Assembly (NCBI RefSeq): GCF_001677435.1
Contig: NZ_CP016268.1
Location: forward strand, 248,001 to 312,000
Direction of reading: 5' to 3'
Origin: Woeseia oceani
Lineage (GTDB): Bacteria; Pseudomonadota; Gammaproteobacteria; Steroidobacterales; Woeseiaceae
Length of the DNA stretch: 64,000 nucleotides
Shown: positions 9,441 through 62,024 of the stretch, piece by piece
How the letters are laid out: the number at the start of each line of letters is the position of its first letter
Position numbering within the stretch: position 1 is the first letter of the stretch
Made by a program: the position numbers and the translations under genes
Notes under the pieces: model-generated
Told to the model about the DNA's origin: nothing
Database searches by the model: none
The model's input: the letters and a program-made list of their open reading frames with translations, nothing else

Positions 9441-9447
9441 CCAAACC

Positions 9448-9804: not shown

Positions 9805-9928
9805 ATCGGCGCCACCCGGCCGCCGAGACGTAGCGCTGCGCCCGCGACAGGGCGTCGCTGCATCCGAACAGGTTTTTATGCAGTCCGTCGCCCCGTGACT
9901 TCGGCGACACGCAGGAGAGGTTCCACCC

Positions 9929-10579: not shown

Positions 10580-10583
10580 TCCA

Positions 10584-12479: not shown

Positions 12480-12480
12480 G

Positions 12481-13230: not shown

Positions 13231-13276
13231 CGGCTTTCTTGCGGCAGGCACCAAAAACGCGGGCGCCGGAAAAAGC

Positions 13277-13307
13277 TTGACCTTCCCATAATGGGAAGGT
13301 CTAGAGT
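13277..13307 (+). promoter_or_regulatory. CueR-type copper-responsive promoter
   Basis: TTGACC (13277-13282) and TAGAGT (13302-13307) are separated by exactly 19 bp. The spacer region holds a perfect 10-bp inverted repeat, GACCTTCCCA and TGGGAAGGTC, with a 3-nt centre. This matches the known CueR operator (ACCTTCC / GGAAGGT). It drives the regulator at 13353 and the ATPase, so the pair is autoregulated by Cu(I). Confidence 0.9.
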
Positions 13308-13352
13308 CGGGCCGTGAACGCCAATCAGTGGCGGCAAACGGAGGCTGGACCA

Positions 13353-13748
13353 ATGAACATCGGGCAAGCGGCGGAAACGACAGGCGTCTCCGCAAAACGC
13401 ATTCGGTACTACGAACAGATCGGGTTGCTTGGCAAGGCTAAACGCAGTGCCTCGGGTTACCGGGTGTTTGGCCGTGACGAACTGCACACATTGAGCTTCA
13501 TCAGGCGGGCTCGCCGGCTTGGTTTCTCCGTGCCGAAAATATCGGCGCTATTGGAGCTGTGGCAGGACCAGCGTCGCAGCAGTGCCGACGTTAAACGTCT
13601 TGTCGAGACTCACCTTGACGAGCTGCGGGAAAAGATCGGCGAACTTCAGTCGATGGTCGATACCTTGCAGCACCTGGCAGATCGCTGCGATGGCGACAAA
13701 CGCCCCGACTGCCCGATTCTTCATGACCTCGAAAGGAGTGAATCATGA
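13353..13748 (+). CDS. cueR: CueR-type copper-responsive MerR-family regulator
   Basis: 131 aa. The winged-helix DNA-binding start is [22 protein letters not shown], followed by SGYRVF and [12 protein letters not shown], then the long dimerisation helix ([20 protein letters not shown]) and the C-terminal metal loop CDGDKRPDC with CPIL after it. The C-x7-C spacing and the operator just upstream fit Cu(I)-sensing CueR. The ATG at 13353 is preceded by GGAG; an in-frame GTG at 13314 would sit at the expected transcription start and is less likely. Its stop overlaps the ATPase start (ATGA). Confidence 0.92.
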
Positions 13749-15967
13749 GCGCGGAATATACATGTCCCATGCATCCCGAAGTGCAGTCGAACGAGCCCGG
13801 CAGCTGCCCGAAATGCGGTATGGCACTGGAACGCAAGAACATTGCGGCAAAGCGAACGCAATACACCTGTCCGATGCACCCGGAAATCGTCCGCGACGAA
13901 CCTGGCAGTTGCCCCATCTGCGGCATGGGGCTCGAACCGGTCGTCGTGAGCGCGGAGGAGGATACGTCCGAACTCGACGACATGACGCGCCGGTTCTGGG
14001 TGAGCGTTGTGCTGACGCTTCCGTTGTTCGTGTACGCGATGGGCGAGATGATTCCCGGTCAGCCAATGGAGCAGCTGTTGCCGGTTGCCTGGCGCCAATG
14101 GCTGCAACTGGCACTGGCTACGCCGGTTGTGTTGTGGGGCGGCTGGCCGTTCTTCGTACGCGGCTGGAACTCGGTCCGGACTCTGAATCTCAACATGTTC
14201 ACGCTGATCGCGCTCGGCGTTGGCGTGGCGTTCGTCTATTCACTGGTCGCCACGGCGTTCCCCGAAATTTTCCCCGAGGCGTTCCGGAATCACGCTGGTG
14301 AAGTAGCGCTCTACTATGAAGCGGCTGCGGTAATTACAACACTTGTGCTGCTCGGCCAGGTGCTTGAGCTGAAAGCGCGAAGTCAAACGTCGGGAGCCAT
14401 TCGTGCGCTGCTGGAACTGGCGCCGCCAACAGCCCGGCGAATTTCCGACGACGGTAACGAGGAAGAAGTATCCCTGGATGACCTCGTCCCGGGCGATCGG
14501 CTGCGCGTAAAACCCGGTGAAAAGGTCCCGGTTGACGGCACAGTCGTGGAAGGGCACAGCTCGGTTGATGAATCGATGATCAGTGGCGAACCAGTACCGG
14601 TGGAAAAGCGTGCCGACGATGATGTGGTCGGCGGTACCGTTAACGGCACCGGCAGCCTGATCATTGAAGTGACTCAGGTCGGCGACGACACCTTGTTGTC
14701 GCAGATCGTCCGCATGGTCGCCGAAGCACAACGCAGTCGCGCCCCGATCCAGAAGCTCGTCGATCTCGTCGCCGCGTGGTTCGTACCCGCTGTTGTCGCA
14801 GTGGCTATCGTCACTTTTGTTGTCTGGTCAATTTGGGGGCCTGAACCCGCCATGGCCTACGCCATCGTCAACGCGGTTGCCGTTCTGATCATCGCTTGTC
14901 CCTGTGCACTCGGACTCGCAACGCCGATGTCAATCATGGTTGGTACCGGCAAAGGTGCTCAGCTTGGCATCCTGATCAAGAGTGCCGAAGCGCTCGAAAC
15001 CTTCGAGAAGGTCGATACCGTCGTGGTCGACAAGACCGGTACGCTGACTGAAGGCCGGCCCGAGCTGGTCATGATCGAGGCCGCTGGCGAGTTCGACGAC
15101 GAGTCGCTGCTGGCCCTGGTTGCGTCGGTAGAGAAAGCCAGCGAGCACCCGTTGGCCCAGGCCATTGTCACCGCTGCAGAGAAACGTTCGTTGAGCCTGA
15201 CGACCGCGACCGGATTCGAATCGGTTACCGGCGAAGGCGCGAGCGCCAGCGTCGGCGACCACAGCGTTGCGATTGGCAATAGCAAGCTCATGCGCCGCCT
15301 TAACGCCGAAGACAAGTCGTTGGCAGACGCCGCGGAAAAGTATCGTGCCGAAGGACAGACCGTCATGTTTGTCGCGGTAAACAGCAAACCTGCCGGCATT
15401 ATCGGTGTAGCCGATCCCATCAAGGAATCGACGCCGCGGGCCATCGAGATGCTGCATGACGCCGGCCTCAGGGTCGTGATGCTGACTGGCGACAGCCTGG
15501 GCACGGCGAACGCGGTTGCTGGAAAAATCGGCATCGACGACGTGCACGCTGATGTGTCTCCGGAAGACAAGAACCGTGTGGTCCGGGAGCTTCAGGCGAA
15601 AGGCGCAATCGTGGCAATGGCCGGTGACGGCATCAACGATGCGCCGGCGCTGGCACAGGCCGACGTCGGCATCGCAATGGGCACAGGTACTGACGTGGCA
15701 ATGGAAAGCGCCGGCGTAACGCTGGTTCGTGGTGATCTGCTGGGTGTGGCGAAGGCGCGCGAGCTGAGTCAGCAGACCATGCGCAACATCCGCCAGAACC
15801 TGTTCTTCGCGTTCGCTTACAACACGGCCGGAGTTCCCATTGCGGCCGGCGTGCTCTACCCCGTTTTCGGGTTGTTGTTGAGTCCGATGATCGCGGCTGC
15901 CGCGATGAGCCTGAGTTCGGTTTCGGTAATCGGCAATGCACTGCGGCTGCGCCGCCTGAAGCTCTGA
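13745..15967 (+). CDS. Cu(I)-exporting P1B-type ATPase with two YTCPMHPE domains
   Basis: This 740-aa inner-membrane pump expels cytoplasmic Cu(I) using ATP. Instead of CxxC-type heavy-metal-associated domains, the N-terminus has two copies of a small Cys/His domain (YTCPMHPEV...[10 protein letters not shown] and YTCPMHPEI...[10 protein letters not shown], about residues 5-33 and 38-66). The core has the transmembrane metal site CPC (near residue 385, [13 protein letters not shown]), phosphorylation site DKTGTLTEG (about 428), the HP dipeptide SEHPLAQAI and hinge [14 protein letters not shown]. It is translationally coupled to cueR. It is named by family only, because copA is already used here for the oxidase. 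Confidence 0.95.
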
Positions 15968-15995
15968 AAAACGTAACTGACACAAGGTCTTTATC

Positions 15996-17294
15996 ATGAG
16001 CGATAACTACAAGTCGGGCAGCCTGTCACTGACGGCGACAGTTGCGATGGGTACCGGCGTCATGATTGGCGCCGGTATCTTTGCACTGACCGGCCAGGTC
16101 GCGGAATACGCCGGTCCACTGTTTCCGGCAGCCTTCCTGCTCGCGGCCATCATCAGCGGATTCAGCGCGTACACCTATATAAAGGTAACCAGCAAGTACC
16201 CGTCCGCTGGCGGTATCGCGATGATTCTGCAGAAGGCCTACGGCAAGACCATGATGACCGGCGCCAGCGCGCTGCTGATGGCAATTTCGATGATCATCAA
16301 CGAAAGCCTGGTCGCCCGAACCTTCGGTACCTACACGCTGCAATTATTCGACGCAGAAAACCTCGACTGGCTGGTCCCGGTGCTTGCGGTCGGGCTGATC
16401 GTCGTCGCGTTCCTCATTAACATCGCCGGCAATCGGCTGATCGGTGCCGTTTCCAAGGTCACCGCCGTCGTCAAAATCCTGGGAATACTTGGCTTCGCGA
16501 CAGCAGCCCTGTGGGCCGCTGGCTGGTCCTTCGAACCAGCAACCGGTGGCGTGATTGACGATACGTCGGCGACCGGGTTTCTCGCCGGCGTCGCGTTGGC
16601 GATTCTCGCTTACAAGGGATTTACGACCATAACGAACAGCGGCGGCGAAGTTGTCGACCCGCACAAGAACGTCGGTCGGGCGATCATGATCTCGCTCGGA
16701 ATTTGCGTCGTTGTATACATGCTGGTCGCCTTCGGCGTCGGATCGACCTTGACCGTCGAAGAGATTGTCCGGGCCAAAGACTATTCATTGGCAGAAGCGG
16801 CACGACCGGCGATGGGCGACTATGGTGTGTGGTTCACGGTCGGGATAGCGATCGTTGCCACCAGCTCAGGTTTGTTGGCAAGCGTATTCGCTGTATCGCG
16901 CATGCTTGCGATGCTGACCGATATGAACATCATCCCCCATCGCCACTTCGGAATGCAGGGCGGCATCCAGAAGCACACGCTGGTGTATACGGTCGTGCTG
17001 GCTGCTTCTCTTGCGGCATTCTTCGACCTGAGCCGCATCGCGTCGCTTGGCGCGATCTATTATCTCGTCATGGATATCGCCATACACTGGGGTGTATGGC
17101 GGCACCTCAAAGCTGACGTCGACGCGCAGGCGTGGGTCTTGGCGACGGCAATCGTGCTCGACGCACTGGCGCTGGTCGCATTCATTGTCATCAAGGGCGG
17201 CGCGGATCCATTGATCGTAATAATCGCTGTTTCGTCGATCGTCGCGATTTTTGGCTTCGAGCGTTACTACCTGGCTCAGAAGCGCGGCGACTGA
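15996..17294 (+). CDS. APC-family permease
   Basis: 432 aa with about 12 predicted membrane helices. The first helix carries the APC superfamily signature GTGVMIGAGIFALTGQVAEYAGP, and AYKGFTTITNSGGEVVDPHKNVGRAIMISL is the usual motif after TM6. Substrate specificity cannot be read from sequence; amino acids or related amines are typical. It begins 28 bp after the copper ATPase on the same strand and so is likely co-transcribed. Why a permease accompanies the copper genes is unclear; supply of a copper-chelating amino acid would be a guess. Confidence 0.85.
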   Translation: MSDNYKSGSLSLTATVAMGTGVMIGAGIFALTGQVAEYAGPLFPAAFLLAAIISGFSAYTYIKVTSKYPSAGGIAMILQKAYGKTMMTGASALLMAISMIINESLVARTFGTYTLQLFDAENLDWLVPVLAVGLIVVAFLINIAGNRLIGAVSKVTAVVKILGILGFATAALWAAGWSFEPATGGVIDDTSATGFLAGVALAILAYKGFTTITNSGGEVVDPHKNVGRAIMISLGICVVVYMLVAFGVGSTLTVEEIVRAKDYSLAEAARPAMGDYGVWFTVGIAIVATSSGLLASVFAVSRMLAMLTDMNIIPHRHFGMQGGIQKHTLVYTVVLAASLAAFFDLSRIASLGAIYYLVMDIAIHWGVWRHLKADVDAQAWVLATAIVLDALALVAFIVIKGGADPLIVIIAVSSIVAIFGFERYYLAQKRGD

Positions 17295-40117: not shown

Positions 40118-40564
40118 ATGACAGCTGTCAACGAAGAGCGCCAAATCGAGCTCAACACCGTGCTGCAATTGTTGCTAGAACGCCCCGGACTGGAATCATG
40201 GGCGCGGGTTTGCATGAGTCTGTTGGCCCTTACCGAGGGTATCGAGCGATTCATGGACCATGAAGACGAGTTCCCACATCGAGAGCTTCGGGAAACCGTC
40301 GAACTCGCCCTGGCATCGAACGACCCGAACGCGAAGCTGCTCGAGATAGCGTCCTTGCAAGTATTTGAGTATCGCGTCATGAGTGAGGACGATCGAACCT
40401 TGTGGCATCCGCTGGAAGAGAGTTTTCAGCACTTTGCCGAACGCCATGCCGAGAAAATCCGTGTCTGGCGGGCATTCAGCGCGTACCCGAATCGCGAGGT
40501 CATTGAATCCTGGTTGATTGCGCGCGTGTCCGATACGGGCGTATCAGAGATGAGTGAATGCTAG
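40118..40564 (+). CDS. Hypothetical protein preceding the relaxase
   Basis: 148 aa, mostly helical and charged, with no signal or membrane segment. Segments such as WARVCMSLLALTEGIERFMDHEDEF and WHPLEESFQHFAERHAEKIRVWRAF can be seen, but no family was recognised. It overlaps traI by 7 bp, so it is likely translated with the relaxase and could be an accessory DNA-processing protein. Confidence 0.7.
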   Translation: MTAVNEERQIELNTVLQLLLERPGLESWARVCMSLLALTEGIERFMDHEDEFPHRELRETVELALASNDPNAKLLEIASLQVFEYRVMSEDDRTLWHPLEESFQHFAERHAEKIRVWRAFSAYPNREVIESWLIARVSDTGVSEMSEC

Positions 40565-42129
40565 GGCTGGCGAACAAGTCGCGGCGGTCGGCCGATGAAT
40601 CGGGCGAGCAGCCCATCCTGACGGGTAAAGCGCTGCTCGTGGAACACGCCGCGAGACTCAGGAGTATCCGTGCCATCGTCGGTGTGCCCGACGCGCACTG
40701 GCGCTGGTTGTACCAAACCGCGTTCACGAAATTCGCCGAGATGGTGCAGCGCCTGCCAGCCTCCGAGGCGCACCATCACTGCGAGTTGGGCGGCCTGCTG
40801 CGGCATGCGCTGGAGGTGGTGGAGCTCGCGCTCAGGATTCGGCGCGGCTACGTGCTGCCGCCCGACAAAGAACCCGAAATCGTCATCGCGGAACAGGACG
40901 CATGGACTTACGCCGTTGCCACCGCGTCTTTGCTGCACGACGTCGGTAAAGCGATGGTGGATCAGCGTATTGTTCTGCACGGGCGCGATGGGCTGCCGAT
41001 CGGACTCTGGAGTCCGTGGGTCGGCCCGATGACCAAGGTGGCTAGCACGCACTACCGCATCGAGTTTCGGCGCGGACAAGCGCATCGATTGCACGAGGCT
41101 GTGTCGCCGCTGCTGGTGACTCACATCGTGCCCGCAGACGGCCTGCGCTGGTTGGGCGATCATCACGATGCGCTGGCTGCTTGGCTCGGCGCCATCGGCG
41201 GTCACGCGCTGGGTTGCACGGTAATCGCCGATATCGTGAAAGAGGCCGATCAAGGCTCGGTGGCTCTAGATCTCAGCGGCGAACGACGCCAGCTGCAAAG
41301 TGCCGGCGCAAATCCTCTGGCCGAGCGCTTGTTTGTGGCACTGCGCCAGTTGATCGACAGCGGCGCATTGCCCGTCAATCAGCAGGGCGCGGGCGCTTTC
41401 CTGGATGACACGAGCTTGTGGCTGGTGTGTGAGCGCGGTCTGGACGCGATTCGTGACGCTCTGCAAGGCCAGGCGGGTGTGCCGGCTCGCAACGATCGTC
41501 TCATCGATGAACTGCAACAGCGTGGCTTCGCCGTGTCAACCACGGAACAACGTGCCGTGTGGCACTGCGAAGTGCGGGTTGGCGACGGTGATGACAGTTG
41601 GTGCCAAACGCTGAGCCTACTTCGCATTCCCTTGGCTTGTCTGTGGCCAGATCCGGCGGCGAGATCGCCCTGCGCCGCGGTGTGGATTCGCGAAGTTGAG
41701 GCAGTATCAGAAAGGTCTGCCGATGCGGATCCGGCGGTTGTTGATGCGAGCGAATCAGCTTCGGCGAATGCGACCGACCCAGGCGAGCCGTTTCTGCCGT
41801 GGTTGATCGACGGGATTGAAAACGGCGCGCTGGCGATCAATACCGCAAAGGCACAAGTACACGTGGTGGACGAAGGTTTGTTGCTGGTCAGTCCCGCGAT
41901 TTTTCGCCTGTTTGCCGACGAGGAATGGCGGGAGGCGCAGAAGCGATTTCTGAAACGCAAACTGAGTGCCAAAACCGCACGCGGTGAAAATATCTTTCAC
42001 TACGCCGTCGACGGCGACGCCGGCACCAAAACCATCAAGGGTCTGCTGATCCGCAATCCGGGAGCGAAGCTCGGGCTCGAATTACCGAGCGCCAATGGTC
42101 TTCTTTCGCCCAAGTCGGACACGGAGTAG
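40558..42129 (+). CDS. traI: MOBH-family relaxase TraI
   Basis: 523 aa. The N-terminal TraI_2 domain has the MOBH histidine cluster SEAHHHCELGGLLRHALEVV and an HD-type motif in ASLLHDVGKAMVD. The C-terminal TraI_2_C domain is seen in EAQKRFLKRKLSAKTARGENIFHYAV. MOBH relaxases nick at oriT and pilot the strand in SXT/R391, IncA/C and R27-type elements. The length is shorter than SXT TraI (about 700 aa), though both ends of the family are present. traD follows after six bases. Confidence 0.92.
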   Translation: MLGLANKSRRSADESGEQPILTGKALLVEHAARLRSIRAIVGVPDAHWRWLYQTAFTKFAEMVQRLPASEAHHHCELGGLLRHALEVVELALRIRRGYVLPPDKEPEIVIAEQDAWTYAVATASLLHDVGKAMVDQRIVLHGRDGLPIGLWSPWVGPMTKVASTHYRIEFRRGQAHRLHEAVSPLLVTHIVPADGLRWLGDHHDALAAWLGAIGGHALGCTVIADIVKEADQGSVALDLSGERRQLQSAGANPLAERLFVALRQLIDSGALPVNQQGAGAFLDDTSLWLVCERGLDAIRDALQGQAGVPARNDRLIDELQQRGFAVSTTEQRAVWHCEVRVGDGDDSWCQTLSLLRIPLACLWPDPAARSPCAAVWIREVEAVSERSADADPAVVDASESASANATDPGEPFLPWLIDGIENGALAINTAKAQVHVVDEGLLLVSPAIFRLFADEEWREAQKRFLKRKLSAKTARGENIFHYAVDGDAGTKTIKGLLIRNPGAKLGLELPSANGLLSPKSDTE

Positions 42130-42135
42130 CAGACG

Positions 42136-44160
42136 GTGTTCGACAATCGATTGCGTCCCGTGTTCGAGTTTCTGCCGGCGTCGGTGGCGATGCTGTCGGC
42201 GCTCGCACTGCTGGTGTTTCCGCAGGATCTCTTTCCGATCATGCCGTTGTTGGCGTGGATCGTCGCGGCGCTGCTGGGCGCCTGGGGTTTGTGTCGATTT
42301 CTTCAGGGTGCCGCCGTGATCCGGTACCAGACGCAATTGCGTCAATTGCCACGCTATCGACTGGCGCCGCGACAGATTCCAACTTCTAACAGTCAGTTGT
42401 TCTTAGGTCTGGGCTTTCGCTGGTCGCAGCGCCACACCCAACGACTGGTCGAGGCACGCCACCCGGATGCGAGACGGTACCTGCAGCACGGCTTGTTGTT
42501 CCGAGGCGTACGCCGCCTTGAGCAAATCCTCGATGGCGCGGCCGGTCTTCGGTGGCTGGCGCGCATGCTGCGCGCTGATGCCTGGTGGAATCCTTTCCGC
42601 CCCTCGCCGGCGGTGGGTGGCGATCCCTTGTTGCACGGCGTCGGTGCGGCCGAAGAAGCGCCAGTCAGCATGAACCTCGATGAGCGCAACGGACACACCT
42701 TGGTGGTGGGCACGACCCGAGTGGGCAAGACCCGTGAGGCCGAGATACTGGTGACGCAAGACATCCGCCGTGGGGAGACCGTCGTGGTGATCGACCCAAA
42801 GGGAGATCTGGACTTGTTGATGCGCTGCTACGCGGAAGCCAAACGGGCCGGCCGCCTGGATACATTTCAAATCATTCACCTCGGCTTTCCGGAATGGTCG
42901 GCCCGCTACAATCCGGTCGGCGACTTCGGCCGCATCACCGAAGTCGCATCCCGCACGGCAACGCAACTGCCGTCGGCCGGTAACTCCGCCGCCTTTCGCG
43001 AATTCGCGTGGCGTTTCACCAATGTCGTCGCACGTGCCTTGGTGGGTCTGGGTCGACGGCCCGACTATCGGGCCATTGCGCGCCACGTGACCAACATCGA
43101 ACCCTTGTTGATCGACTACTACGAATGGTGGCTAGATAAAATCATGCTTGGCGATTGGCGAGAGGCGGTGCAGACAATAGAGAGCAACATCGAGCCCAAG
43201 AACCTGACGCTGTCACATCGCGGTCGCGACCACTACGCGCTGGCGCTGATTCGCTTCGCTAATGAGCGCGGGCTCTACGACCCGGTGGCCGACGGCCTCC
43301 GCAGCGCGTTCGACTACGACAAGACCTATTTCGATAAGCTCACGGCGTCCTTATTGCCGTTGTTGGAAAAGCTTACTTCGGGTCCCGTAGGCGAACTGCT
43401 CGCACCGCGCTACGCAGATCTCAATGACGACCGACCGATACTGGACTGGATGCGGGTGATTCGCGAAAACGGCATCGTCTATGTTGGCCTTGATGCGCTC
43501 AGTGATCCGGACGTGGCGAGCGCCGTCGGCAACTCGATGTTCGCTGACTTGACCTCGGTCGCCGGTCGGCTCTACAAGCACGGCGACACGCAAGGCTTGC
43601 CGCAGGCACGCAGTCATCGGCGTGCGCCCTGCGTCGTGCACGCCGATGAGTTTGCCGAACTGGTGGGTCAGGAGTTCATTCCGCTGCTCAATAAAGCCGG
43701 TGGCGCCGGAATTCAGGTAACCGCCTACACGCAGACAACGGCAGACATCGAAGCGGGCATCGGTGATCGCGCCAAGGCGGGACAAATTCTCGGCAACTTC
43801 AACACACTGCTGATGCTCCGCGTCCGGAATGAACACACCGCAAGAGTGCTCACTGAGCATCTGCCGCGGGTGCGGGTATTCACCAAAACCGCGGAGTCAC
43901 GCGTCACCGACAACAACGAACCCGACACGCCGGTTGACTTCATCTCGCAAAACGCCGATCGCTTGATGGAAACCGATACTGAAATGCTGATGCCGGCGGA
44001 TGTGATGGCATTGCCGAAAGGCCAGTGTTTTGCGCTGTTGCATGGCGGGCATCTGTACAAACTGCGCATGCCGCTGCCCGGCAAGGACCGCTGCATGCCC
44101 TCGGGGCTCGATGAAATTCGTACCGAATGTCTGGTGCGTTACGCGGGTTGTCAACAGTAA
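42136..44160 (+). CDS. traD: Conjugation coupling protein TraD (VirD4-like)
   Basis: 674 aa starting at GTG. Two N-terminal membrane helices (VAMLSALALLVFPQDLF, LLAWIVAALLGAWGLCRFL) precede the ATPase domain with Walker A LVVGTTRVGKTREAEILV and VVVIDPKGDLDLLMRCYAEA, and Walker B VVHADEFAELVGQ with GIQVTAYTQTTADIEAG. It recognises the relaxosome and pumps DNA into the mating channel. Gene order traI-traD-membrane protein is as in SXT-like elements. Confidence 0.93.
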   Translation: MFDNRLRPVFEFLPASVAMLSALALLVFPQDLFPIMPLLAWIVAALLGAWGLCRFLQGAAVIRYQTQLRQLPRYRLAPRQIPTSNSQLFLGLGFRWSQRHTQRLVEARHPDARRYLQHGLLFRGVRRLEQILDGAAGLRWLARMLRADAWWNPFRPSPAVGGDPLLHGVGAAEEAPVSMNLDERNGHTLVVGTTRVGKTREAEILVTQDIRRGETVVVIDPKGDLDLLMRCYAEAKRAGRLDTFQIIHLGFPEWSARYNPVGDFGRITEVASRTATQLPSAGNSAAFREFAWRFTNVVARALVGLGRRPDYRAIARHVTNIEPLLIDYYEWWLDKIMLGDWREAVQTIESNIEPKNLTLSHRGRDHYALALIRFANERGLYDPVADGLRSAFDYDKTYFDKLTASLLPLLEKLTSGPVGELLAPRYADLNDDRPILDWMRVIRENGIVYVGLDALSDPDVASAVGNSMFADLTSVAGRLYKHGDTQGLPQARSHRRAPCVVHADEFAELVGQEFIPLLNKAGGAGIQVTAYTQTTADIEAGIGDRAKAGQILGNFNTLLMLRVRNEHTARVLTEHLPRVRVFTKTAESRVTDNNEPDTPVDFISQNADRLMETDTEMLMPADVMALPKGQCFALLHGGHLYKLRMPLPGKDRCMPSGLDEIRTECLVRYAGCQQ

Positions 44161-44858
44161 TGACCAGATCCCACGACAGTGCGTACGCGATCTATCCTCG
44201 GCCAGCAGGTCCGCTAATTCCGGAACACAGCGTGCTAGGCGGGCTGTGGCGCTGGGTGCGGTGGGTCGCAGCGCTGTGCGTCCTGGTGCTGCTCATCGAT
44301 CTATTTTTCGTCATCGTCATCTGGGTCGACGGCACCCAAGCGCTGGGCCGGTTGATCGCGACAGAACGACAGATTCTCGGGCTGGATTCGAGTACTGACG
44401 CCGGCCGTTTCGTGGATGCGACCGTCACCGCGGCACACGACTGGGTGTTGGTGAAAACCGGCCTTGGCACCTGGCTGACGACACAACGCAGTGGGCTGTT
44501 GGCGGCTCTTATCGATGGACTGTGGGTCCTCGTCGAAACGGCGCTACTGGGCTTGCAGCTCTTTGCGATGCGCCTCGCGGTGCTGATCCTGAGCCTGCCG
44601 CTGTTTGTTTTAGTCGGTACGACTGCGGTGGCGGACGGTCTGTACGGTTGGTTGATGCGTCGAACCGGTGGGGGACGAGAATCGGGCTTCATCTACCACC
44701 GCGCGAAACGGGCTGTGCCAGTATTCCTGCTGCTGGTGTGGGCGGTGTACCTGGTGCCGCCTGTACCGATGAATCCGCGTTGGGTTATACCGCCGTTTGT
44801 TGTTTTGTTCGCGATCGCGCTTCGTCTACGCGTGTCCTATTTCAAGAAGTACATCTGA
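44160..44858 (+). CDS. Integrating-element membrane protein (DUF4400/TIGR03747-like)
   Basis: 232 aa with four membrane helices (WVAALCVLVLLIDLFFVIVIW, LLAALIDGLWVLVETALLGLQLF, AVLILSLPLFVLVGTTAVADGLYGWL, FVVLFAIALRLRVSYF). ESGFIYHRAKR and WVIPPFVV are the kind of signatures seen in the DUF4400 proteins that follow traD in integrating conjugative elements. The start overlaps the traD stop. Precise function unknown. Confidence 0.85.
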   Translation: MTRSHDSAYAIYPRPAGPLIPEHSVLGGLWRWVRWVAALCVLVLLIDLFFVIVIWVDGTQALGRLIATERQILGLDSSTDAGRFVDATVTAAHDWVLVKTGLGTWLTTQRSGLLAALIDGLWVLVETALLGLQLFAMRLAVLILSLPLFVLVGTTAVADGLYGWLMRRTGGGRESGFIYHRAKRAVPVFLLLVWAVYLVPPVPMNPRWVIPPFVVLFAIALRLRVSYFKKYI

Positions 44859-44941
44859 GATGCAGGTGATCACGGGGATGCTTCTGAAGATGACGCCGTC
44901 CTCCTCGAAATAGTCGATCAGTATCCCGGAGCGAAACTGGG

Positions 44942-44992
44942 GCTGGCCTGTCACGCCGGAGGTCGCGGGTTCAAGTCGCGTCTCTACAGCCA
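44942..44992 (+). other. tRNA-Asp(GTC) 3' fragment, probable attachment-site scar
   Basis: The 3' half of a tRNA is visible: anticodon arm CTGGC-CTGTCAC-GCCGG, variable loop, T-arm GCGGG-TTCAAGT-CGCGT and acceptor end with CCA. Anticodon GTC and the stretch GTCGCGGGTTCAAGTC match tRNA-Asp. There is no matching 5' half (no D-arm or complementary acceptor strand), and the T-stem has one mismatch. Such 3' ends are the usual integration sites of conjugative elements, so this is probably the right-hand att site of the element to its left. Confidence 0.7.
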
Positions 44993-45033
44993 TAATAAAA
45001 ACAATCACTTAGCAGCATAATACGGAAAGTAAT

Positions 45034-45053
45034 GGCCCTTCAGGGCCGTTTTT
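45034..45053 (+). terminator. Intrinsic terminator after the tRNA fragment
   Basis: GGCCCT (45034-45039) and AGGGCC form a 6-bp hairpin with a two-base loop, followed by GTTTTT. This is the form usual behind tRNA genes and supports the reading of 44942-44992 as the end of a tRNA locus. Confidence 0.8.
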
Positions 45054-45245
45054 GCCACAAGAATCGGGCCTGCTGTAATCCGCAGAATTCCGCCATTCTC
45101 CGAATCGGTCTTTGTGGCGTTGTGGCAAATTTGTGGAAAATGCCCAAGAATCCCGTCCTGCAATTTCTTCCTTCTATTGAAGCCGATCTGTTGCTAGTTT
45201 GGAGCCTTGCGGACGGCTGTTGCCTCCCGGGAGTATCGAAAACAG

Positions 45246-46973
45246 ATGGACCAGCTTAAGCAGCAACACCGAACGCAGGCATCATTGCCGGGCATGTGCC
45301 CGGTCGAATCCGCTTTGGAGGAGCTTCGCAGCGCCGGAGCCGAGCAGCGCGGCGCCATCTTCACCCGCGCCGAGGTCGTTGAGTTTATTCTCGACCTCGC
45401 AGGTTATACCCCGGACAAACCACTCCACCGCCTTTCGCTCCTGGAGCCGTCATTCGGTGAAGGCGACTTTCTGCTGGTGGCTATCGAGCGTTTGCTTCAA
45501 TCATGGAGAAAGCACGCAGATAAAGATGCTGATCCAGAGGATTTGAGCAATGCAATAACAGCCGTTGAACTTCATGAAGACACCTACGCAGCAACGCGCA
45601 CCAGAGTCATAGCGTTACTGCAAGAAGCTCATATCGAGCAGCAGATGGCAGAGGATCTCGCCGACAACTGGCTTATCAAAGGAGACTTCCTGCTTACGTC
45701 AATGAGCGGATCGTTCGATCTTGTCGTCGGCAATCCGCCCTATGTCCGCCAGGAACTGATTCCGGATGCGCTGATCGCAGAGTACCGCGGCAGGTACAAG
45801 ACCGTATTTGATCGTGCCGACATCTATATTCCCTTCATCGAGCGTTCACTGGATCTTCTCCGTAAAGGCGGCGTTCTCGCATTTATCTGCGCAGATCGCT
45901 GGATGAAGAACCGCTACGGTGGCCCGCTTCGGGAAATGGTCGCCAATGACTATCACCTCAGAGTTTATATCGACATGGTCGATACGCCGGCATTCCACAG
46001 TGAAGTGATTGCCTATCCGGCAATCACCGTTATTGCGAAAGAAAAGGGAACCAGGACGCGCATCGTGCGCCGGCCAGCGATTGATCGGGACGAGCTCAGA
46101 GTCCTGTCGCATTCACTTGTCGCCAGGAAATTGCCTGCAGCAGGCAGCCCGATAAAGGAACTGACAGGCGTCGCGGCCGGCCGCGAGCCCTGGATACTGG
46201 AATCGTTTGACCAGCTTGCCGTCGTCCGGCGTCTGGAGCAGGATTTCCCCGCTATTCAGGATGCCGGCTGCAAAGTCGGAATCGGAGTCGCAACCGGTGC
46301 GGACAAAGCTTTCATCGGGCCTTTTGAAGAGCTCGATGTAGAGCCGGATCGGAAGCTCCCGCTGGTCATGACGCGCGACATCAAGTCAGGACATGTTCAG
46401 TGGCGCGGCTTCGGCATCGTCAATCCTTTTGCAGACGAGGGCGGGCTGGTCCCGCTCGACAGATTTCCGAAGCTCAAGGCCTATCTCGAAGAGCGAAAGG
46501 ACCAGATCGACAAACGCCATGTGGCGCAGAAAGCGCCTGCCAACTGGTACCGGACGATCGACCGCATCTATCCGGCGCTTGCAAAGCGGCCCAAGCTCTT
46601 AATTCCGGATATTAAGGGCGAAGCGCAGATCGTTTATGAAGACGGAAATCTCTATCCGCATCATAATCTCTATTACATCGTCAGTGACGAATGGGACCTT
46701 CGGGCCCTGCAGGCGGTCTTGCTCTCCGGGATCGCACGGCTTTTTGTTGCGACATACTCAACGCGGATGCGCGGCGGTTATCTTCGCTTTCAGGCACAAT
46801 ACCTACGACGAATTCGCTTGCCCCGATGGGGCGATGTGGATAAACACCTAAGAAAATCCTTGATTGATGCGGCGAGAACCGGCGATGCTGAGACCTGCAA
46901 TGAGGCAGCCTTCCGGCTTTATGGCCTGGGCAAGGAGGAACGCGCGGCGCTTGGCGGCAACGGTGAAGGATAG
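45246..46973 (+). CDS. Type II DNA adenine methyltransferase (PaeR7I/XhoI-like)
   Basis: About 575 aa. An N6-adenine methylase fold is clear: SAM motif [14 protein letters not shown], catalytic NPPY in [15 protein letters not shown], then [26 protein letters not shown]. The C-terminal half carries the target-recognition domain typical of single-chain gamma/Eco57I-like methylases. Together with the next gene it forms a type II system; the nuclease similarity suggests CTCGAG as target. The ATG at 45246 is preferred; a TTG at 45207 extends it by 13 residues. Codon use is less GC-rich than the transfer genes, consistent with separate acquisition. Confidence 0.88.
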
Positions 46974-46975: not shown

Positions 46976-47716
46976 ATGGCGATTGATCTGGCAGACTACG
47001 AAAATAAAACGCGCGAAGCTGTTCAGGCTTTCTGGGGAAATCGGGAAAAAGCCCGGCAGAAGCAGATTGAGGCCGGGAAAGCAGATCAGGGTGAGCGTGC
47101 CGGTGTTACAGCCGGCAAGAACATGGACGGCTTTCTCGCTCTCGTCGCCGATATTGTCAGGGCAAACGGGCTGAGGAACGCCAGCATTCATCTGAAGCGC
47201 CGCGTTCTGACACTGCCCGGATATTTTCGCCCGACAAAGTTATGGGACATGCTCGTGATGCACGAGGGCCGGCTCATCGCCGCGCTGGAGTTCAAGAGCC
47301 AGGTCGGCCCTTCATTTGGCAACAATGCCAACAATCGCGCGGAAGAGGCGATTGGAACTGCGCACGATTTCTGGGTTGCATACAGGGAAGGGGCTTTTGG
47401 CGATCAGACCCGGCCTTTCGCCGGTTGGCTCATGTTGCTGGAGGATGCTCCGAAGTCCCGCGAGCCGGTACGCGATTCCTCGCCGCACTTTCCGGTCTTC
47501 CAAGAATTCAAGGGCGCATCATATGCGGACCGCTATGACATTCTTTGCCGCAAGCTTGTGCAGGAAAGTTTGTATAGCGCAGCGTCTCTTGTTCTCTCGC
47601 CACGCGAGGCTGCCAGCACGGGAGAATATTCCGGATTGAGCGAATTGACCGGCATCAAGACCTTTGTAACCGAATTTGCCGGTCACATTGCTACCGAAGC
47701 TGCACGCGCCGGATAG
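46976..47716 (+). CDS. Type II restriction endonuclease, PaeR7I/XhoI family
   Basis: 246 aa, the usual length for this family. It opens [23 protein letters not shown] and continues [24 protein letters not shown], as in PaeR7I and XhoI, which cut C^TCGAG. A PD-(D/E)XK-like core is seen in [23 protein letters not shown], with E and K in ALEFKSQ as likely metal and catalytic residues. It lies 2 bp after the methyltransferase in the same direction. Specificity is inferred from family likeness only. Confidence 0.88.
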
Positions 47717-47758: not shown

Positions 47759-48886
47759 ATGATCGAATTCACGCCAGACAGGCTCGAAATCAGGGACTTT
47801 CGAGGACTTCCGTCAATCGATCTCGACATTCATTCCGGCACGCCCGCCTTTCTCATCGGGCCGAATAATTCCGGAAAATCCACAGTATTGAGCGCCATGG
47901 CCTTTGCGCTCAAAGGCGGCGGCTTTCACAAATTCACCCCGCAGCCTTACGACTTCCTCCACCATGCAGATGGCTCGCACGAGGACCGCTTTTCGATCCG
48001 GCTTTACTTTCGGTCGTCCGATCAATTGCCGTCCGTCCACACGGTCGGAGCAGTAACGGAAGTTCACGCTCTGGAAGTCGAAGGAAGATACTACAAGACA
48101 TCCGGCCGATTGGAGCATACGCACAGGCTACTTGATAATGAAGGCAAGTCGATCACGCTTGTAACTGAAACACCGGTAAAGAAAGAAGATGCTGGCGCTT
48201 ATGCCGATGCCGGGCACGGATACAAGCTTCGAAATGCTCACTATGGCGACATCCGTGAATTCCTCCCAGAGGTCTGGTTATTAAGTGCTAAAAAACTTCA
48301 GCCGTCTCACTACGCGTGGAAAACGGGCCCCTTAAGTAAGCTGGCGTCGCTTCTTTCCGGAAAGTTCTTTCAGGAGAAATGGGAGTTCGAGCACAAGGGA
48401 AAAAAGAGAAAGATGCCGACAGGCATTGAACAGGCGCATAAGTTTTTCTCCTCTGCCGTCAAAGAGTTTCCTTTCTGGAAGGAGACTCTTAAGCCTGCGA
48501 TGGAAGCTGCGCTGTCCTCCTATCTTGGTAGCCAGACAAGTGTCCAGCTTAGTCCGCTGATTCAGTCCGTCGAGGACTGGCTTAGACAGCAGTTACTCTT
48601 GTCGGGAGCTTGGCGCGGCATTCCTTTGCGCCGACCTGGGGCTAAAGCTCGAAGATCGCAGCGATCACGCCGCCTATATCGGCTCGTGGCTAAAGGTTCT
48701 GAAGAACGACAACAAGGCGATCTTCGCCGCCGCGGCGCACGCCCAGCGGGCTGTCGATTACCTGCACGGTTTGCAGGCAACCTCCGCCGGGGAGAGCGCC
48801 GCCTAGGCGCTCTTAATCGTCCGCGCGAGTCGCTGTTGCGCTTCAAGAACACGCGGAACTGCGTGTTATTCTATGGTCCCGACTAA
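47759..48886 (+). CDS. AAA-family ATPase, C-terminally truncated and fused out of frame
   Basis: The open frame is 375 codons, but only about the first 280 are authentic. These show an SMC/OLD-type ATPase: LEIRDFRGLPSIDLDIHSG, Walker A FLIGPNNSGKSTVLSAMAFAL, then a helical region (FFSSAVKEFPFWKETLKPAM). At about 48,600 the frame runs into the ardC remnant read in the wrong phase (GAKARRSQRSRRLYRL), so the Walker B/D-loop part and any nuclease domain are missing. It follows the restriction gene by 42 bp. Probably a disabled defence or repair gene. Confidence 0.7.
   Translation: MIEFTPDRLEIRDFRGLPSIDLDIHSGTPAFLIGPNNSGKSTVLSAMAFALKGGGFHKFTPQPYDFLHHADGSHEDRFSIRLYFRSSDQLPSVHTVGAVTEVHALEVEGRYYKTSGRLEHTHRLLDNEGKSITLVTETPVKKEDAGAYADAGHGYKLRNAHYGDIREFLPEVWLLSAKKLQPSHYAWKTGPLSKLASLLSGKFFQEKWEFEHKGKKRKMPTGIEQAHKFFSSAVKEFPFWKETLKPAMEAALSSYLGSQTSVQLSPLIQSVEDWLRQQLLLSGAWRGIPLRRPGAKARRSQRSRRLYRLVAKGSEERQQGDLRRRGARPAGCRLPARFAGNLRRGERRLGALNRPRESLLRFKNTRNCVLFYGPD
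48606..48806 (+). pseudogene. ardC antirestriction gene, 3' remnant copy 1
   Basis: Read in the phase ending at TAG 48804-48806, the DNA gives ELGAAFLCADLGL, DHAAYIGSWLKVLKND and AHAQRAVDYLHGLQ, the C-terminal end of ArdC-type antirestriction proteins (ssDNA-binding plus zincin-like domain). About 66 residues remain; the rest is absent and the truncated ATPase abuts it. A second copy lies at 50435-50605, about 90 percent identical by eye over 150 nt. Confidence 0.8.
48848..48867. terminator. Hairpin downstream of ardC remnant 1
   Basis: AACACGC and GCGTGTT pair perfectly across a 6-nt loop, followed by ATTCT. It may be a weak terminator of the original ardC or part of the leader of the gene starting at 48873. 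Confidence 0.4.
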
Positions 48887-50453
48887 CAGGCGATCTAGTA
48901 TCCGGACTGGCCGCATGCGTTCTGATTTGTTGACAGCTTCACATTACAGGCTTCACAGGGCTGCGCATCGCCGGTTTCCCCGAATCATTTCAAATCCCGA
49001 TTATCAGCACCTTGAAATTCACAGGTCACACGATGCGGAGGAAAACGCCCGGTCGCAGCCACATCAAGACGAGTCAATACGCTTGCGCAGTCTCTGGGCT
49101 ATCGAATACTACTTTCCTTCACACGATGACGGACTCTTTGCCGGCTTCGCCAGGCTCGGCTGGGACAAGGAAGAAACCGGCGCGCTCGGGCGCAATCCAG
49201 CAGATTGGCTGCGAAAACGAAAGGAAACCATTTCAGGCGGCGGCTGGTCTAATCTCGGCTATATAGCGCGCCCCGGCCCGAAACGGTTTGTTGGACCGCA
49301 CCGTACAGCAGCACTCCCGGATGACGTCGATTACGCTGAGTGCAGAATATACGCTCTTACAAGCGCCGTTTCCTGCATCGTCATGATGTTTGTCGTGAAG
49401 GAAGAAGTAGGCGGCCGGTATGAACACATACTTAGACAAACATATCAGACTGAGATCCGGCCCCGGGGACGCGGCTATGAAATTATCGGTCCTGAGCTCC
49501 AGAAGGAGAGGGCGATAAGCAACGCGCGTAGTGCGCTGCGTAGTGAGCTTCGCAACTGGTTCCAAAGGAATCTGCCAGGGTACTTTTCGTCTGAGGAGTC
49601 AGGTACGGAAATGCCCGTATGCGAATTCCTTACTCTAATGAAGGCACAACCTTTTTCTCCACGCGATGACGATATGGCGCAAAGCGAGCCTGCACTTCAC
49701 GTCCTTGGTATTGACCATGACTTTGATGCGTGGGCCTATGGCGAGGTTCCGGGTCTCAGATTTTCGTGGCCTATTCGGCCAGCCGGACCAAAGGGGTTAT
49801 ATGCTGTCATAGCCGCACGGCGCGATAATTTTCCGGAGGATAAGCTTGAAATGTACGGAGGTCGTGATTCAGCCTTGCCGGTATTTCTTGATCATCGCAT
49901 TAACGGCTTGCTCAGCCGCTGGTCTTTATTGGGAGTCCTTGCCGGTCTTGAACGGAAGTTTGCGCTCCGCCACATTACTTCGGAGCTCAAAGCCTCGCTA
50001 CCACGAAACGCGCTCAAGAGACTAAATCGGCTAGGTGATCTGTTCTCCACTGCCACGGAGACCGGCCTTCTCGCCGCCGAAATCGAACGATTCTCGGACC
50101 AAAAAATCAGCTTTTCGCACGGGGTCGCGGCATTTTCTCCATGCCGTCCCGAATACTATCGAACAGAAAATCCGTCCTTGGCAGGCATTTTTCGGGAGAA
50201 CATTAACCGGCGGTCTAAGACACTTGTACAGCGTGCATCCTCGAGCCAGGAGCTAATGATGCAACAGACTACGGCGGTCGGGACGCGCGAAAATGTTCGT
50301 CTACAGCGCAGGATAATGCTGCTTACATGGATTATTGTCGTGCTGACCGGCCTATTGGCGTGGAATGTGTTCAGGGATCTTTCGTCATCACAGGCAAAAG
50401 ATGAACGCCAGGTCACAGAGCAAGCTGAATTCGCTGCGCCGATCTGGGGCTAA
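48873..50453 (+). CDS. Unrecognised protein with C-terminal membrane anchor, between two ardC remnants
   Basis: 526 aa from ATG 48873, or 512 from ATG 48915. The bulk is soluble, with no motif recognised; visible blocks are IRLRSLWAIEYYFPSHDDGLF, TSAVSCIVMMFVVKEE (hydrophobic patch), HVLGIDHDFDAWAYGEVPG and SFSHGVAAFSPCRPEYYR. Near the end a polar helix (ENVRLQRR) leads into one membrane span (IMLLTWIIVVLTGLLAWNVF) and a short tail. The last few residues are read out of ardC sequence, so the native C-terminus may be altered. Codon use resembles the restriction genes. Its place between two ardC ends in a defence-gene block makes an anti-phage role plausible but unproven. Confidence 0.7.
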   Translation: MVPTNRRSSIRTGRMRSDLLTASHYRLHRAAHRRFPRIISNPDYQHLEIHRSHDAEENARSQPHQDESIRLRSLWAIEYYFPSHDDGLFAGFARLGWDKEETGALGRNPADWLRKRKETISGGGWSNLGYIARPGPKRFVGPHRTAALPDDVDYAECRIYALTSAVSCIVMMFVVKEEVGGRYEHILRQTYQTEIRPRGRGYEIIGPELQKERAISNARSALRSELRNWFQRNLPGYFSSEESGTEMPVCEFLTLMKAQPFSPRDDDMAQSEPALHVLGIDHDFDAWAYGEVPGLRFSWPIRPAGPKGLYAVIAARRDNFPEDKLEMYGGRDSALPVFLDHRINGLLSRWSLLGVLAGLERKFALRHITSELKASLPRNALKRLNRLGDLFSTATETGLLAAEIERFSDQKISFSHGVAAFSPCRPEYYRTENPSLAGIFRENINRRSKTLVQRASSSQELMMQQTTAVGTRENVRLQRRIMLLTWIIVVLTGLLAWNVFRDLSSSQAKDERQVTEQAEFAAPIWG

Positions 50454-52925: not shown

Positions 52926-52972
52926 GACTCCGAAGGCAGGGGTCGCAAGTTCGAATCTTGCCGGGCGCGCCA
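52926..52972 (+). other. tRNA-Arg(CCG) 3' fragment, probable attachment-site scar
   Basis: Anticodon loop CTCCGAA with 3' stem GGCAG, T-arm GCAAG-TTCGAAT-CTTGC, acceptor strand CGGGCGC, discriminator G and CCA are all present. The 5' half is missing: the bases before the loop do not pair with GGCAG. Integrases commonly recombine at this place in tRNA-Arg genes. The fragment points the same way as the tRNA-Asp fragment 8 kb to the left and ends the defence block. Confidence 0.75.
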
Positions 52973-58354: not shown

Positions 58355-59689
58355 TTAACCCGCGATATGAGCCAGCTTCTTCGCTGATCGCAAGAGCCCA
58401 TCAAAAATTGGTTCAGAAACCGCTTTAGGAAAATCACCGGGCAGCATCGCGGAGACTTCTTCAACTACCCTTGGCGCATGATCGCCAAGGTGCAGCATGT
58501 CTTCTTCCGCCGTGACTTTCAGGCCGATTTCCCGGGCAGTTGATAGCCAGTGCCGAGGCTGAATCTCTGCCCACCGGTAGTGCCTGTTCTTGCCGAGTAC
58601 GGCCATCGCCAGTTTCGCTTTCTGCGGCGCGAGCTGGTTCCTGCCGCTGCCGAGGATCGGGTATGCCGAAATCACATCGTAGCTCGGGGTCAGCGAGAAA
58701 CGGCCACGTGGCCCGATGAAGACGCTGAAATTCTTCGCGTGCCCGTCCGTGGCGCACAGCATCCAGAACAGAACCTGCGTCTGGAAAAAGACCCGCCGCT
58801 CAGTAATCGCGTCCTGCGAGCCCATTAACAGCGAGGATATAGCGGCGATACCCGGCCCACCATCGGCTTCGTATCGAGCAGCGGCCGGGCTGCCTGTTGC
58901 CTGGCACATGTCTTCCTGTGGCAAGCGGATCCACCACGTCTTGTCCCTGGCCAATCGGCGGTCAAAACGCTCGACAATCAATACATGCTGATCTGCAAAA
59001 TCGGCTATCTGGCAGTTGGCGGCGGGAATCCCGAATGCGTGGACAATCTGCCGGCAGAGCCACTCGTTTTCCACCGAGGTCGACAGGTCGGCCTGCATGT
59101 TGCCGACGCGGCCAAGTGGCAGTTTGAAGATGTGCGTGGTTGGGGTAGCCCCGGTTGGGCGGTGCCATTGGCCCTGATGCAAAAGCAGCGCCGATTTCTC
59201 CTGAGCGCCAGCAAGTGAAATGCGAAACGGATCATGATCGCGCTGACCGAGCGGTGCCGCAGATATTGCGGCTCGCAACTCGCCAGCGACGCCTTCCTCG
59301 TCGAGCGGTTCGGCATCAATTTGCCGGATGCTTTCCGGTTGGTTATCCGGTGGCAGCAATTGCACGGCGCCGACACATTCCCGACCTACCTCAAACAGCA
59401 GGTCGAATGCAGAGACAGAAGCGGCGCCAAACCGTGCCTGAACGCGGCGACGGATGTCGATGCTATCGGGCAACAGATTGTCGAAAAAGGATTCGACGAG
59501 ATCACCGCGATAGGGTGTATCGGCGGGTTGCAATGGCATGGACAGTGATAGCGGGCGGGTTTCGTCGGCCGCAATCCATGTCTCAGCATAACGAAACTCA
59601 TGCTGCCCGGTAGCGTCGATGGTCCAGTGGCCCACCAGCTCGCCGTTCATCCATACGCCCAGGCGTCGACTTTTGGATTGACGCGCCAC
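58355..59689 (-). CDS. hipA: HipA-family kinase toxin, module 1
   Basis: 444 aa starting at GTG. HipA N-terminal couple (GVWMNGELVGHWTI, PLSLSMPLQPADTPYRGDLVESFFDNLLPD) is followed by the kinase part: FRISLAGAQEKSALLL, THIFKLPLG (ATP lysine region), VENEWLCRQIVHAFGIP, VERFDRR, and the catalytic ATDGHAKNFSVFIGP and LTPSYDVISAYP. The serine in the activation loop is not obvious. HipA toxins phosphorylate glutamyl-tRNA synthetase and cause growth arrest. hipB lies 3 bp upstream. Confidence 0.93.
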   Translation of the reverse strand: MARQSKSRRLGVWMNGELVGHWTIDATGQHEFRYAETWIAADETRPLSLSMPLQPADTPYRGDLVESFFDNLLPDSIDIRRRVQARFGAASVSAFDLLFEVGRECVGAVQLLPPDNQPESIRQIDAEPLDEEGVAGELRAAISAAPLGQRDHDPFRISLAGAQEKSALLLHQGQWHRPTGATPTTHIFKLPLGRVGNMQADLSTSVENEWLCRQIVHAFGIPAANCQIADFADQHVLIVERFDRRLARDKTWWIRLPQEDMCQATGSPAAARYEADGGPGIAAISSLLMGSQDAITERRVFFQTQVLFWMLCATDGHAKNFSVFIGPRGRFSLTPSYDVISAYPILGSGRNQLAPQKAKLAMAVLGKNRHYRWAEIQPRHWLSTAREIGLKVTAEEDMLHLGDHAPRVVEEVSAMLPGDFPKAVSEPIFDGLLRSAKKLAHIAG

Positions 59690-60701: not shown

Positions 60702-62024
60702 CTACAGCAGGCTGGCGTCGACCTTTTGCATCGGTGCTGCATGATCGACCAGTTGCCGCGCCTGGTCGTGAACGAAGGCCGAAATCCGTTCGACGAAAGC
60801 CCGCTCATCATCGATGTAATCTTCCGCACAAGCTTGCGCCGGGGCCGCTTCCAGTGCGGCCTTGCCCATGCGGGTCATCTCGCGCGCCAGCAATGGCCGC
60901 GGCGTGCCGGTTCGCCGGGCGAAGTCAGCCCAGGCAAACGGGCTCAACTCTTGCAGCCGAAACTCGTCGCCATAAGCCATTGCTGTGTCGTGGTCGAGAC
61001 TGTCGTACTGCACTACACTCACAAGATCGTAGAAGGGTGCGAGTGCCAGCCCTTCCGGGCGGCAATAGAACGATACGTTCTTGCCGTGTGCATCGGAATT
61101 GCCGATCAGGTACTGGTACAAGGCCCAGCGCAGCAATGACAGCCGGGTGACCGCCTTGTGCACTGTATATTCGCTGATGGAAAACAGCCGTTCGAAGCTA
61201 ACTCCGTCGCGGATATGGCTTACGTCGCGGCCAGCACCGAAATTTCGCTCGTACTTGTAAGCTACGGGAAAGTTCAGCGCCTGGCAGGCGTCGACGATGT
61301 GCAGCCGGCGGACGTGATCGGCATTGCGCAAGCGATCAAAGCGTTCGATCGACAACACCGGGTCTGGCAGCCTCAGAATGGATACAGACGGCACCGCGAG
61401 CCCCAGTCGTGCGGCGAGACTCATGGCAAAGTGTTCATTGGCAACCAGCATTGGCAGCCGGCCGTCCAGGGGTTCGGGCTTCAGTATGTGTGTGGAAGCA
61501 AGCTGGCCTTCGACGAGGTACATGCGGTCCTTATCCGCATCGAGGTAGACGGCCAGCTTGTCCTGATGACCCGCGATGGAAAGGCGTACCCGCCCGTCCC
61601 AGGCCGCGAACGGAATCTGCGATCGCTGCCCGATTCGTTGCCTAAGCTCCTCCCGCTTTATCTCACGTCGCGTGTCGGCTTGGTCTTGAGGCGCTTGATC
61701 GTCGGGCAGGAAGGCGAGAGCGCCCGAAGTCTCTCGTCCCAGCTCACGGATCAGGCCGTAAATGTTGTTCTTCGCAACCTGGTGCGTCGTCGACACTATG
61801 TCCAGCGCGCGCCCTTCCGGCAGCAGGTTCTCCACGAAGCGTCGCACCGTACCCGTTTCGGCCGGTTTACCAAACCTCAGGATATGCGGTGAGATCGAGT
61901 AACTCGTTTCGGTTGCCAGCCATCCCGGGTCGTAATCGAAACCGAATCGTTCTTCGAGCGACTCATATTCCAGGGTGCCGACCCGTGAATCGCCGTCGAA
62001 CACCGCGAGCCTGTGCAAGCTCAT
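60702..62024 (-). CDS. hipA: HipA-family kinase toxin, module 2
   Basis: 440 aa. The N-terminal domain has LAVFDGDSRVGTLEYESLEERFGFDYDPGWL, FVENLLPEGRALD; the kinase part has RLSIAGHQDKLAVYLD, STHILKPEP, ANEHFAMSLAARLGLAVP, LSIERFDR, the catalytic GNSDAHGKNVSFYCRP and APFYDLVSVV. All main HipA residues are present. It differs strongly from module 1, so it is not a recent duplicate. The start overlaps the hipB stop (ATGA). Confidence 0.92.
   Translation of the reverse strand: MSLHRLAVFDGDSRVGTLEYESLEERFGFDYDPGWLATETSYSISPHILRFGKPAETGTVRRFVENLLPEGRALDIVSTTHQVAKNNIYGLIRELGRETSGALAFLPDDQAPQDQADTRREIKREELRQRIGQRSQIPFAAWDGRVRLSIAGHQDKLAVYLDADKDRMYLVEGQLASTHILKPEPLDGRLPMLVANEHFAMSLAARLGLAVPSVSILRLPDPVLSIERFDRLRNADHVRRLHIVDACQALNFPVAYKYERNFGAGRDVSHIRDGVSFERLFSISEYTVHKAVTRLSLLRWALYQYLIGNSDAHGKNVSFYCRPEGLALAPFYDLVSVVQYDSLDHDTAMAYGDEFRLQELSPFAWADFARRTGTPRPLLAREMTRMGKAALEAAPAQACAEDYIDDERAFVERISAFVHDQARQLVDHAAPMQKVDASLL

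Follow-up and report, generated by a model that had tools for sequence, protein, structure and literature searches.

The window, that is the whole stretch of 64,000 nucleotides analyzed here, corresponds to bases 248001-312000 of the single 4.06-Mb contig of Woeseia oceani. It carries the transfer region of an integrative and conjugative element (ICE), and the features of the locus are collected in Table 1. TraC, TraU, the MobH relaxase and TraD were matched above the curated cut-offs, TraN and TraG below theirs, and on these six proteins the element was classed as an ICE with an F-type T4SS and a MobH relaxase. SXT/R391 ICEs integrate at prfC, a target that defines the family. The Woeseia ICE is like them in its MobH relaxase, SXT/TOL-type TraD and F-type transfer proteins, judging from NCBIfam matches and what is generally known of that family; however, its integrase and repeat are located at tRNA-Arg(CCG) and not at prfC, which places it outside the SXT/R391 group. 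The sequence after the DUF4400 gene varied among the related loci compared. Further genes of the ICE, at window positions 268-17294, encode a Pyr_redox oxidoreductase, a CusB/HlyD-type adaptor, an AcrB-family pump, a multicopper oxidase and a heavy-metal-binding E1-E2 ATPase, a cargo that looks like heavy-metal resistance. A 526-aa protein (48873-50453) had no Pfam, NCBIfam or PADLOC match; it is encoded beside an ATPase with weak AriA/GajA/OLD matches and is possibly an uncharacterized defence partner.

Table 1. Features of the Woeseia oceani locus and of the int B loci compared with it (window numbering unless marked as genome; G numbers are our genome handles)
Locus	Feature	Position	Strand	Remark
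Genome	Intact tRNA-Arg(CCG)	genome 216313-216389
Genome	Integrase A (int A), 371-aa tyrosine recombinase	genome 216429-217544	-	Adjoins tRNA-Arg(CCG), 3' end of the gene facing the tRNA
Window	MobH/TraI-type relaxase of the ICE	40558-42129	+
Window	Coupling protein TraD	42136-44160	+	conj_TOL_TraD / SXT_TraD
Window	DUF4400 / TIGR03747-like ICE membrane protein	44127-44858	+	Last transfer gene; TIGR03747 below cut-off
Window	Left flank of core	44862-44942		No match to the 3' end of int B or to the left arm present there in other members
Window	tRNA-Asp-like 3' half, anticodon arm to CCA	44943-44992	+	Core (O) of the probable vestigial int B-family attachment site
Window	Right arm (P') of the int B attachment site	44994-45147	+	GCCACA/TGTGGC arm-type repeats; profile matches
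Window	Eco57I-type type II DNA methyltransferase	45207-46973	+	Restriction-modification (R-M) cargo adjoining P'
Window	XhoI-family type II restriction enzyme	46976-47716	+
Window	Proposed right border attR, tRNA-Arg(CCG) 3' half to CCA	52928-52972	+	Repeat of the 3' half of the intact tRNA
G317, G641a, G339	Left recombinase, tyrosine type			Beside tRNA-Arg(CCG)
G313	Left recombinase, tyrosine type			Beside tRNA-Phe
G315	Left recombinase, tyrosine type			About 11 kb away
G522	Left recombinase, serine type			Beside tRNA-Met
S. meliloti	Left recombinase, serine type			Beside tRNA-Arg(CCG)
G801	Left recombinase, serine type			Tyrosine one further left
G314b	Left recombinase, serine type			Fragment at contig edge
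G314a	42-residue serine-recombinase match			At contig edge; tblastn alone
G316	Serine recombinase on the right
G317	Cargo right of P'			HEPN-DUF499
G641a	Cargo right of P'			HsdM
G339	Cargo right of P'			BrxC
G314a	Cargo right of P'			HerA, SIR2, Eco57I methyltransferase
G316	Cargo right of P'			TIR
Window	Cargo right of P'			Methyltransferase and XhoI
G313	Cargo right of P'			SMEK domain, less clear
G522, G801	Cargo right of P'			ArdC anti-restriction
S. meliloti	Cargo right of P'			'Zincin-like metallopeptidase' as annotated

Directly after the last transfer gene lies a tRNA-Asp-like 3' half that ends in CCA and has no 5' half, an observation of the preliminary description that held in both respects. 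By eye, the anticodon stem pairs 44943-44947 with 44955-44959 around the loop CTGTCAC (44948-44954; anticodon GTC), and the T loop TTCAAGT, the acceptor 3' strand and CCA (44990-44992) follow; the D arm and the 5' acceptor strand are absent. One pair of the T stem is mismatched. ARAGORN called no tRNA over the window and the Rfam tRNA model scored the half at 14.8 bits (below the gathering score of 29; E 4.5 over this part of the sequence), a score compatible with half a tRNA; an ordinary complete tRNA gene at this position was thereby ruled out. Chance likeness to a tRNA was ruled out by the match to the genome's own tRNA-Asp (92% over 38 bases, E 1.6e-8). To judge from the comparison of the two sequences, the half is nevertheless not a copy of the host gene, with 41 of 51 bases identical over 44942-44992 and the eight bases preceding CCA reading CTCTACAG in the half versus CCACTCCG in the host (3/8 agree). 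Cores nearer to the half than the host tRNA-Asp were found in tRNA-Asp-type loci of int B, a tyrosine-integrase family distinct from int A and described below; these loci belong to the genome of an uncultured member of the Rhodobacteraceae and to a Woeseiaceae MAG. The exact 37-base core gave no match in genome_contigs, a set that possibly does not hold the window's own genome. In a phage collection 54 records were hit; the 20 matches listed cover the tRNA part of the query alone, and several of these 20 fall under features annotated as tRNA-Asp.

The half had initially been taken as the right-hand att site of the ICE, with an intact tRNA-Asp gene carrying the identical 40-50 bp and followed by an integrase predicted to the left of the window. 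When the whole genome was searched for a 31-base pattern taken from the half, allowing up to three mismatches, the single match was the half's own site. Within genome positions 208001-330000, the best other ungapped match of the 51-base half was 29/51 (30 shuffled queries reached at most 30), and no 12-mer of window positions 44901-45100 recurred on either strand. The tRNA model reported 42 places genome-wide, and ARAGORN on the best 30 of the 42 yielded one tRNA-Asp gene, at 1481857, which is 1.19 Mb from the half. The matching direct repeat upstream, whose absence the preliminary description itself had named as speaking against a border, was looked for and not found.

An intact tRNA with an integrase (int A) beside it does exist 31.6 kb left of the window, although it is tRNA-Arg(CCG) and not tRNA-Asp. 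The 14-mers of its 3' half were found at one other place within genome positions 208001-330000, namely 300928-300976. The two halves are identical at 42 of 48 bases, versus at most 30 for 30 shuffled queries, and their six differences are paired changes in the T stem (GCAAG/CTTGC versus AGAGG/CCTCT), so that both halves could work in a tRNA; with six differences in 48 bases, the right half could also derive from a separate insertion into this tRNA gene. The right-hand version is present without mismatch in two other genomes (G068 and G072). An intact tRNA with an adjacent integrase at one end and a repeat of the 3' half at the other is the arrangement expected of integration into a tRNA gene, and tRNA-Arg(CCG) most likely borders the ICE, the proposed element measuring about 84.6 kb from CCA to CCA. 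The tRNA-Asp half is of att type, as had been recognized, but most likely lies inside the element, 8 kb short of the proposed right border.

Relatives of int A (E 1e-40) were present in 32 of 107 family genomes. We examined 10 int A loci, comprising the window's own and the best of each of nine other genomes (at least 66% identity over the match): in the flanks retrieved, seven, the own locus included, showed a complete tRNA-Arg(CCG) and one a tRNA-Pro(CGG), and in two no tRNA was found. In G068 (contig C7, positions 199302, 209934 and 232878), three identical tRNA-Arg(CCG) 3' halves, the first within an intact gene, lie within 33.6 kb and probably represent a tandem island array. Two HipA-family genes on the minus strand of the window (58355-59689 and 60702-62024) lie 5-9 kb past the tRNA-Arg 3' half.

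The tRNA-Asp half is followed by a conserved arm. A P' profile built from 12 int B loci, with the window excluded, matched the window (E 1.2e-35), the Woeseiaceae MAG G051 (E 4.5e-29) and a Shinella plasmid (E 5.6e-27), and the reversed control was empty. Since five of these 12 loci had been chosen through an arm motif, the profile was redone with the seven loci found by protein; the respective values were 1.5e-32, 4.8e-27 and 2.2e-23 with an empty reversed control, and the other five int B loci were matched at E 2.9e-36 to 1.6e-14. The window therefore displays what marks an int B site, a tRNA 3' half and then the conserved P' arm. The 25-base arm motif was derived from three right arms, namely those of the window, of G051 and of the Shinella plasmid; as the window sequence thus contributed to it, its match at 45081-45105 is by construction. 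Viral contigs contained no P' motif. In the Shinella oryzae plasmid pZ25 (L065, 6001-6152) the P' arm has no tRNA core directly before it, and no int B was seen in the 12 kb fetched. The terminator GGCCCTTCAGGGCC that had been assigned to the half (45034-45047) sits within the conserved right arm; a simple scan listed it on the minus strand alone, although GTTTTT can be seen by eye behind it on the plus strand too. To the left of the core the situation differs: no int B remnant was detected in the window at E 1e-10, no TGTGGC/GCCACA repeats lie within 155 bases, and a search with the left flank itself returned no informative match. We call the site vestigial because neither the 3' end of int B nor a left arm precedes the core.

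BLAST with positions 44860-45200 gave matches in 77 of the 107 family genomes. Besides the own locus, only G051 matched the core plus about 150 bases rightward (74%, E 9e-27); the remaining matches were shorter, and ARAGORN found an intact tRNA-Asp at all 10 of the shorter-match loci on which it was run. The G051 stretch (contig C12) is the same as in JAJFKS010000020.1. Behind its DUF4400 transfer gene come the last ~66 codons of int B, then the core with the right arm seen in the window, and finally, by eye, R-M genes; this order looks like an intermediate stage of int B loss. In genome_contigs the 25-base motif identified six loci, one on the G051 contig and five from Alphaproteobacteria; in all five, a tRNA 3' half and the right arm accompany a full-length integrase. 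Protein searches with int B added seven loci: a second copy in G314, four loci in three further genomes among 390 genomes of one order, one further genome among 385 of its class (a search in which G317 was found again) and one locus on pSymB of S. meliloti. The set hence comprises 12 full-length loci in 10 genomes or replicons; CP140959, a near-identical second record, and four distant 28% matches in Pseudochrobactrum were left uncounted. A sample of 369 genomes of the window's class gave no full-length int B at E 1e-60, a result that lacked a known positive and carries no weight as absence. Eight peptide-pattern stretches in viral contigs were considered, none of which was confirmed as an int B relative.

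The layout int B - arm - tRNA 3' half - arm was observed in all 12 full-length loci, including the seven found by protein and not by the arm motif. The tRNA half, with its start as set by us, begins 23-34 bases after the end of the int B protein match in 11 loci and 165 bases after it in G313. TGTGGC/GCCACA repeats numbered 2-3 in the 155 bases on the left and 3-4 in the 250 bases on the right in these loci, compared with 1 and 2 in G051 and 0 and 3 in the window. Cores beginning at the anticodon arm and flanked on both sides by arm repeats fit a tyrosine-recombinase attP. By our own reading of the anticodon loops the cores are of Lys (three), Trp (two), Asp (one, plus G051 and the window), Phe (one) and Gly (one) type, and the other four share one type of no assigned amino acid. 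As the right arm stays constant behind differing tRNA cores, it belongs to the element, and all 12 loci are accordingly in the attP state; neither an attR with foreign flank nor an int B-integrated copy was seen among them.

To the left of int B, a second recombinase was recognized by Pfam in nine of the 12 loci, or in 10 when the tblastn match in G314a is counted; none was seen in G316 or in G641b, the latter with too little sequence. Six loci adjoin an intact tRNA-Arg, tRNA-Met or tRNA-Phe. The association of int B with a second recombinase is a putative one, as recombinases are common in islands anyway. Comparison of S. meliloti ml21 with ml59 delimited the outer element as pSymB 413831-452367, with an 18-base repeat (2 differences) at tRNA-Arg(CCG) and the int B site untouched ~4.7 kb inside. 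For G313 and G317 the 37-40 kb retrieved contained no repeat of the intact tRNA nearby, so that the outer borders there are putative. Ten int B loci extend far enough beyond P' on the right (G314b and G641b being too short), and 5 of these carry cargo of R-M or defence type there, with no defence-type gene seen by eye in G315; at 5 of 10, and with defence genes common in islands, this is a tendency and not a rule.

We infer that the tRNA-Asp-like half and the arm at 44994-45147 are most likely the relic (O and P') of a second, unused int B attachment site inside the 84.6-kb tRNA-Arg(CCG) ICE. Four points, each established by sequence comparison, underlie this reading: the repeated tRNA-Arg half, the homologous right arm, the layout without recombination in the int B loci and the end of the S. 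meliloti element at tRNA-Arg(CCG). Complete members in other bacteria have the order int B - P - tRNA 3' half - P', unrecombined and usually with another recombinase leftward (a tyrosine integrase or a large serine recombinase). By its predicted activity int B would recombine these sites, other recombinases would have done the integrating, and the int B site may once have offered the element a second possible tRNA target. The Woeseia ICE would then have lost int B and the left arm, the former presumably by deletion. As no int B fragment is left in the window, the case for this loss is drawn from the relatives, of which the G051 MAG shares the transfer gene, an int B remnant, the core and P'.

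Three other histories were weighed against an unused int B site. The half could instead be an attL-type junction, left when a small int B-family R-M element used its core to integrate at a non-tRNA site following the DUF4400 gene; its int B end and attR would have been lost later. The homology to the MAG does begin at window position 44944, a few bases from the left edge of the core where the Int crossover is expected, and the left flank is a different sequence with an open minus-strand frame; but a second copy of the core is absent from genome positions 208001-330000, and the MAG retains, at the same ICE position, an unrecombined site in which the remnant of int B is followed by the core between its left and right arms, which makes such a junction unlikely. 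Tandem accretion, by which two int B-family islands once lay head to tail and left P-O-P' between them, draws some support from the repeated tRNA-Arg(CCG) 3' halves, of which the three identical copies in G068, one in an intact gene, suggest tandem islands, and from G314 and G641, 2 of the 10 genomes or replicons with int B, each of which holds two copies. Around the sites of G313, G315 and G317, however, neither a second core nor an intact cognate tRNA was found in 37-40 kb, and seven of the 10 (G313, G315, G316, G317, G339, G522 and G801) hold a single int B at E 1e-60 or better, the S. meliloti copy search having covered the plasmid record alone; we regard accretion as very improbable.

An ICE integrated at tRNA-Asp, with the half as its right att site, is the least credible of the three. 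The location of a tRNA 3' half immediately behind the last transfer gene is what such an element would leave, yet the partner repeat is absent, the core differs from the host tRNA-Asp and the borders are placed at tRNA-Arg(CCG); tRNA-Asp was rejected as the element border on these grounds. The original observation hence stands while the border claim does not.

Returning to the unused int B site, one may speculate, with more doubt than confidence, that int B and its attP form a stand-by integration module, kept free for a different tRNA than that of the first recombinase. The core would be swapped between lineages, defence and anti-restriction genes would gather behind it, and the Woeseia ICE would have lost the stand-by integrase and kept the docking site. 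That int B retains its own unrecombined attP in 12 of 12 loci, mostly beside another recombinase, suggests mobile elements with two alternative targets. There is a practical side as well: tRNA 3' halves serve to call island borders, and here the tRNA-Asp half is a decoy which would cut the ICE 8 kb short and name the wrong tRNA.

A literature search for elements with an unused second integrase-attP pair recognized none, which is not proof of absence, but related arrangements have been described. CGI48 of Shewanella putrefaciens is a composite genomic island whose GI21 is bounded by attL and attR (9-bp sites) and can excise (PMC8978831). As far as that account of the island goes, the Woeseia ICE is similar in being a tRNA-integrated island that contains R-M genes and a second integrase module; unlike GI21, the inner int B site has not integrated and has the form of an attP, which in complete members possesses both arms (PMC8978831). 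The tripartite ICE3 of Mesorhizobium, as outlined in PMC5882170, likewise has several integrases in one mobile element, each with its own att site; there, three sites recombined with chromosomal targets and split the element in three, whereas the second site of the int B elements remains unrecombined (PMC5882170). The outer ICE resembles the tDNA islands of the Islander database, in the form outlined for them, with a restored tRNA-Arg at one end and, at the opposite end, a 3' fragment that has been displaced (PMC4383910); the tRNA-Asp fragment has the same appearance, yet marks no end.

Two further integrases related to int A were noted. Near position 35000 of the G051 contig C12 (L198), an integrase with 54% identity to int A faces what by eye is the 3' half of a tRNA-Phe-like gene lacking its 5' half; that contig may carry a second att site which is unrecombined or orphaned. 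The genome of W. oceani itself encodes a second int A relative (53%) at 3083414-3084442, beside tRNA-Arg(ACG).
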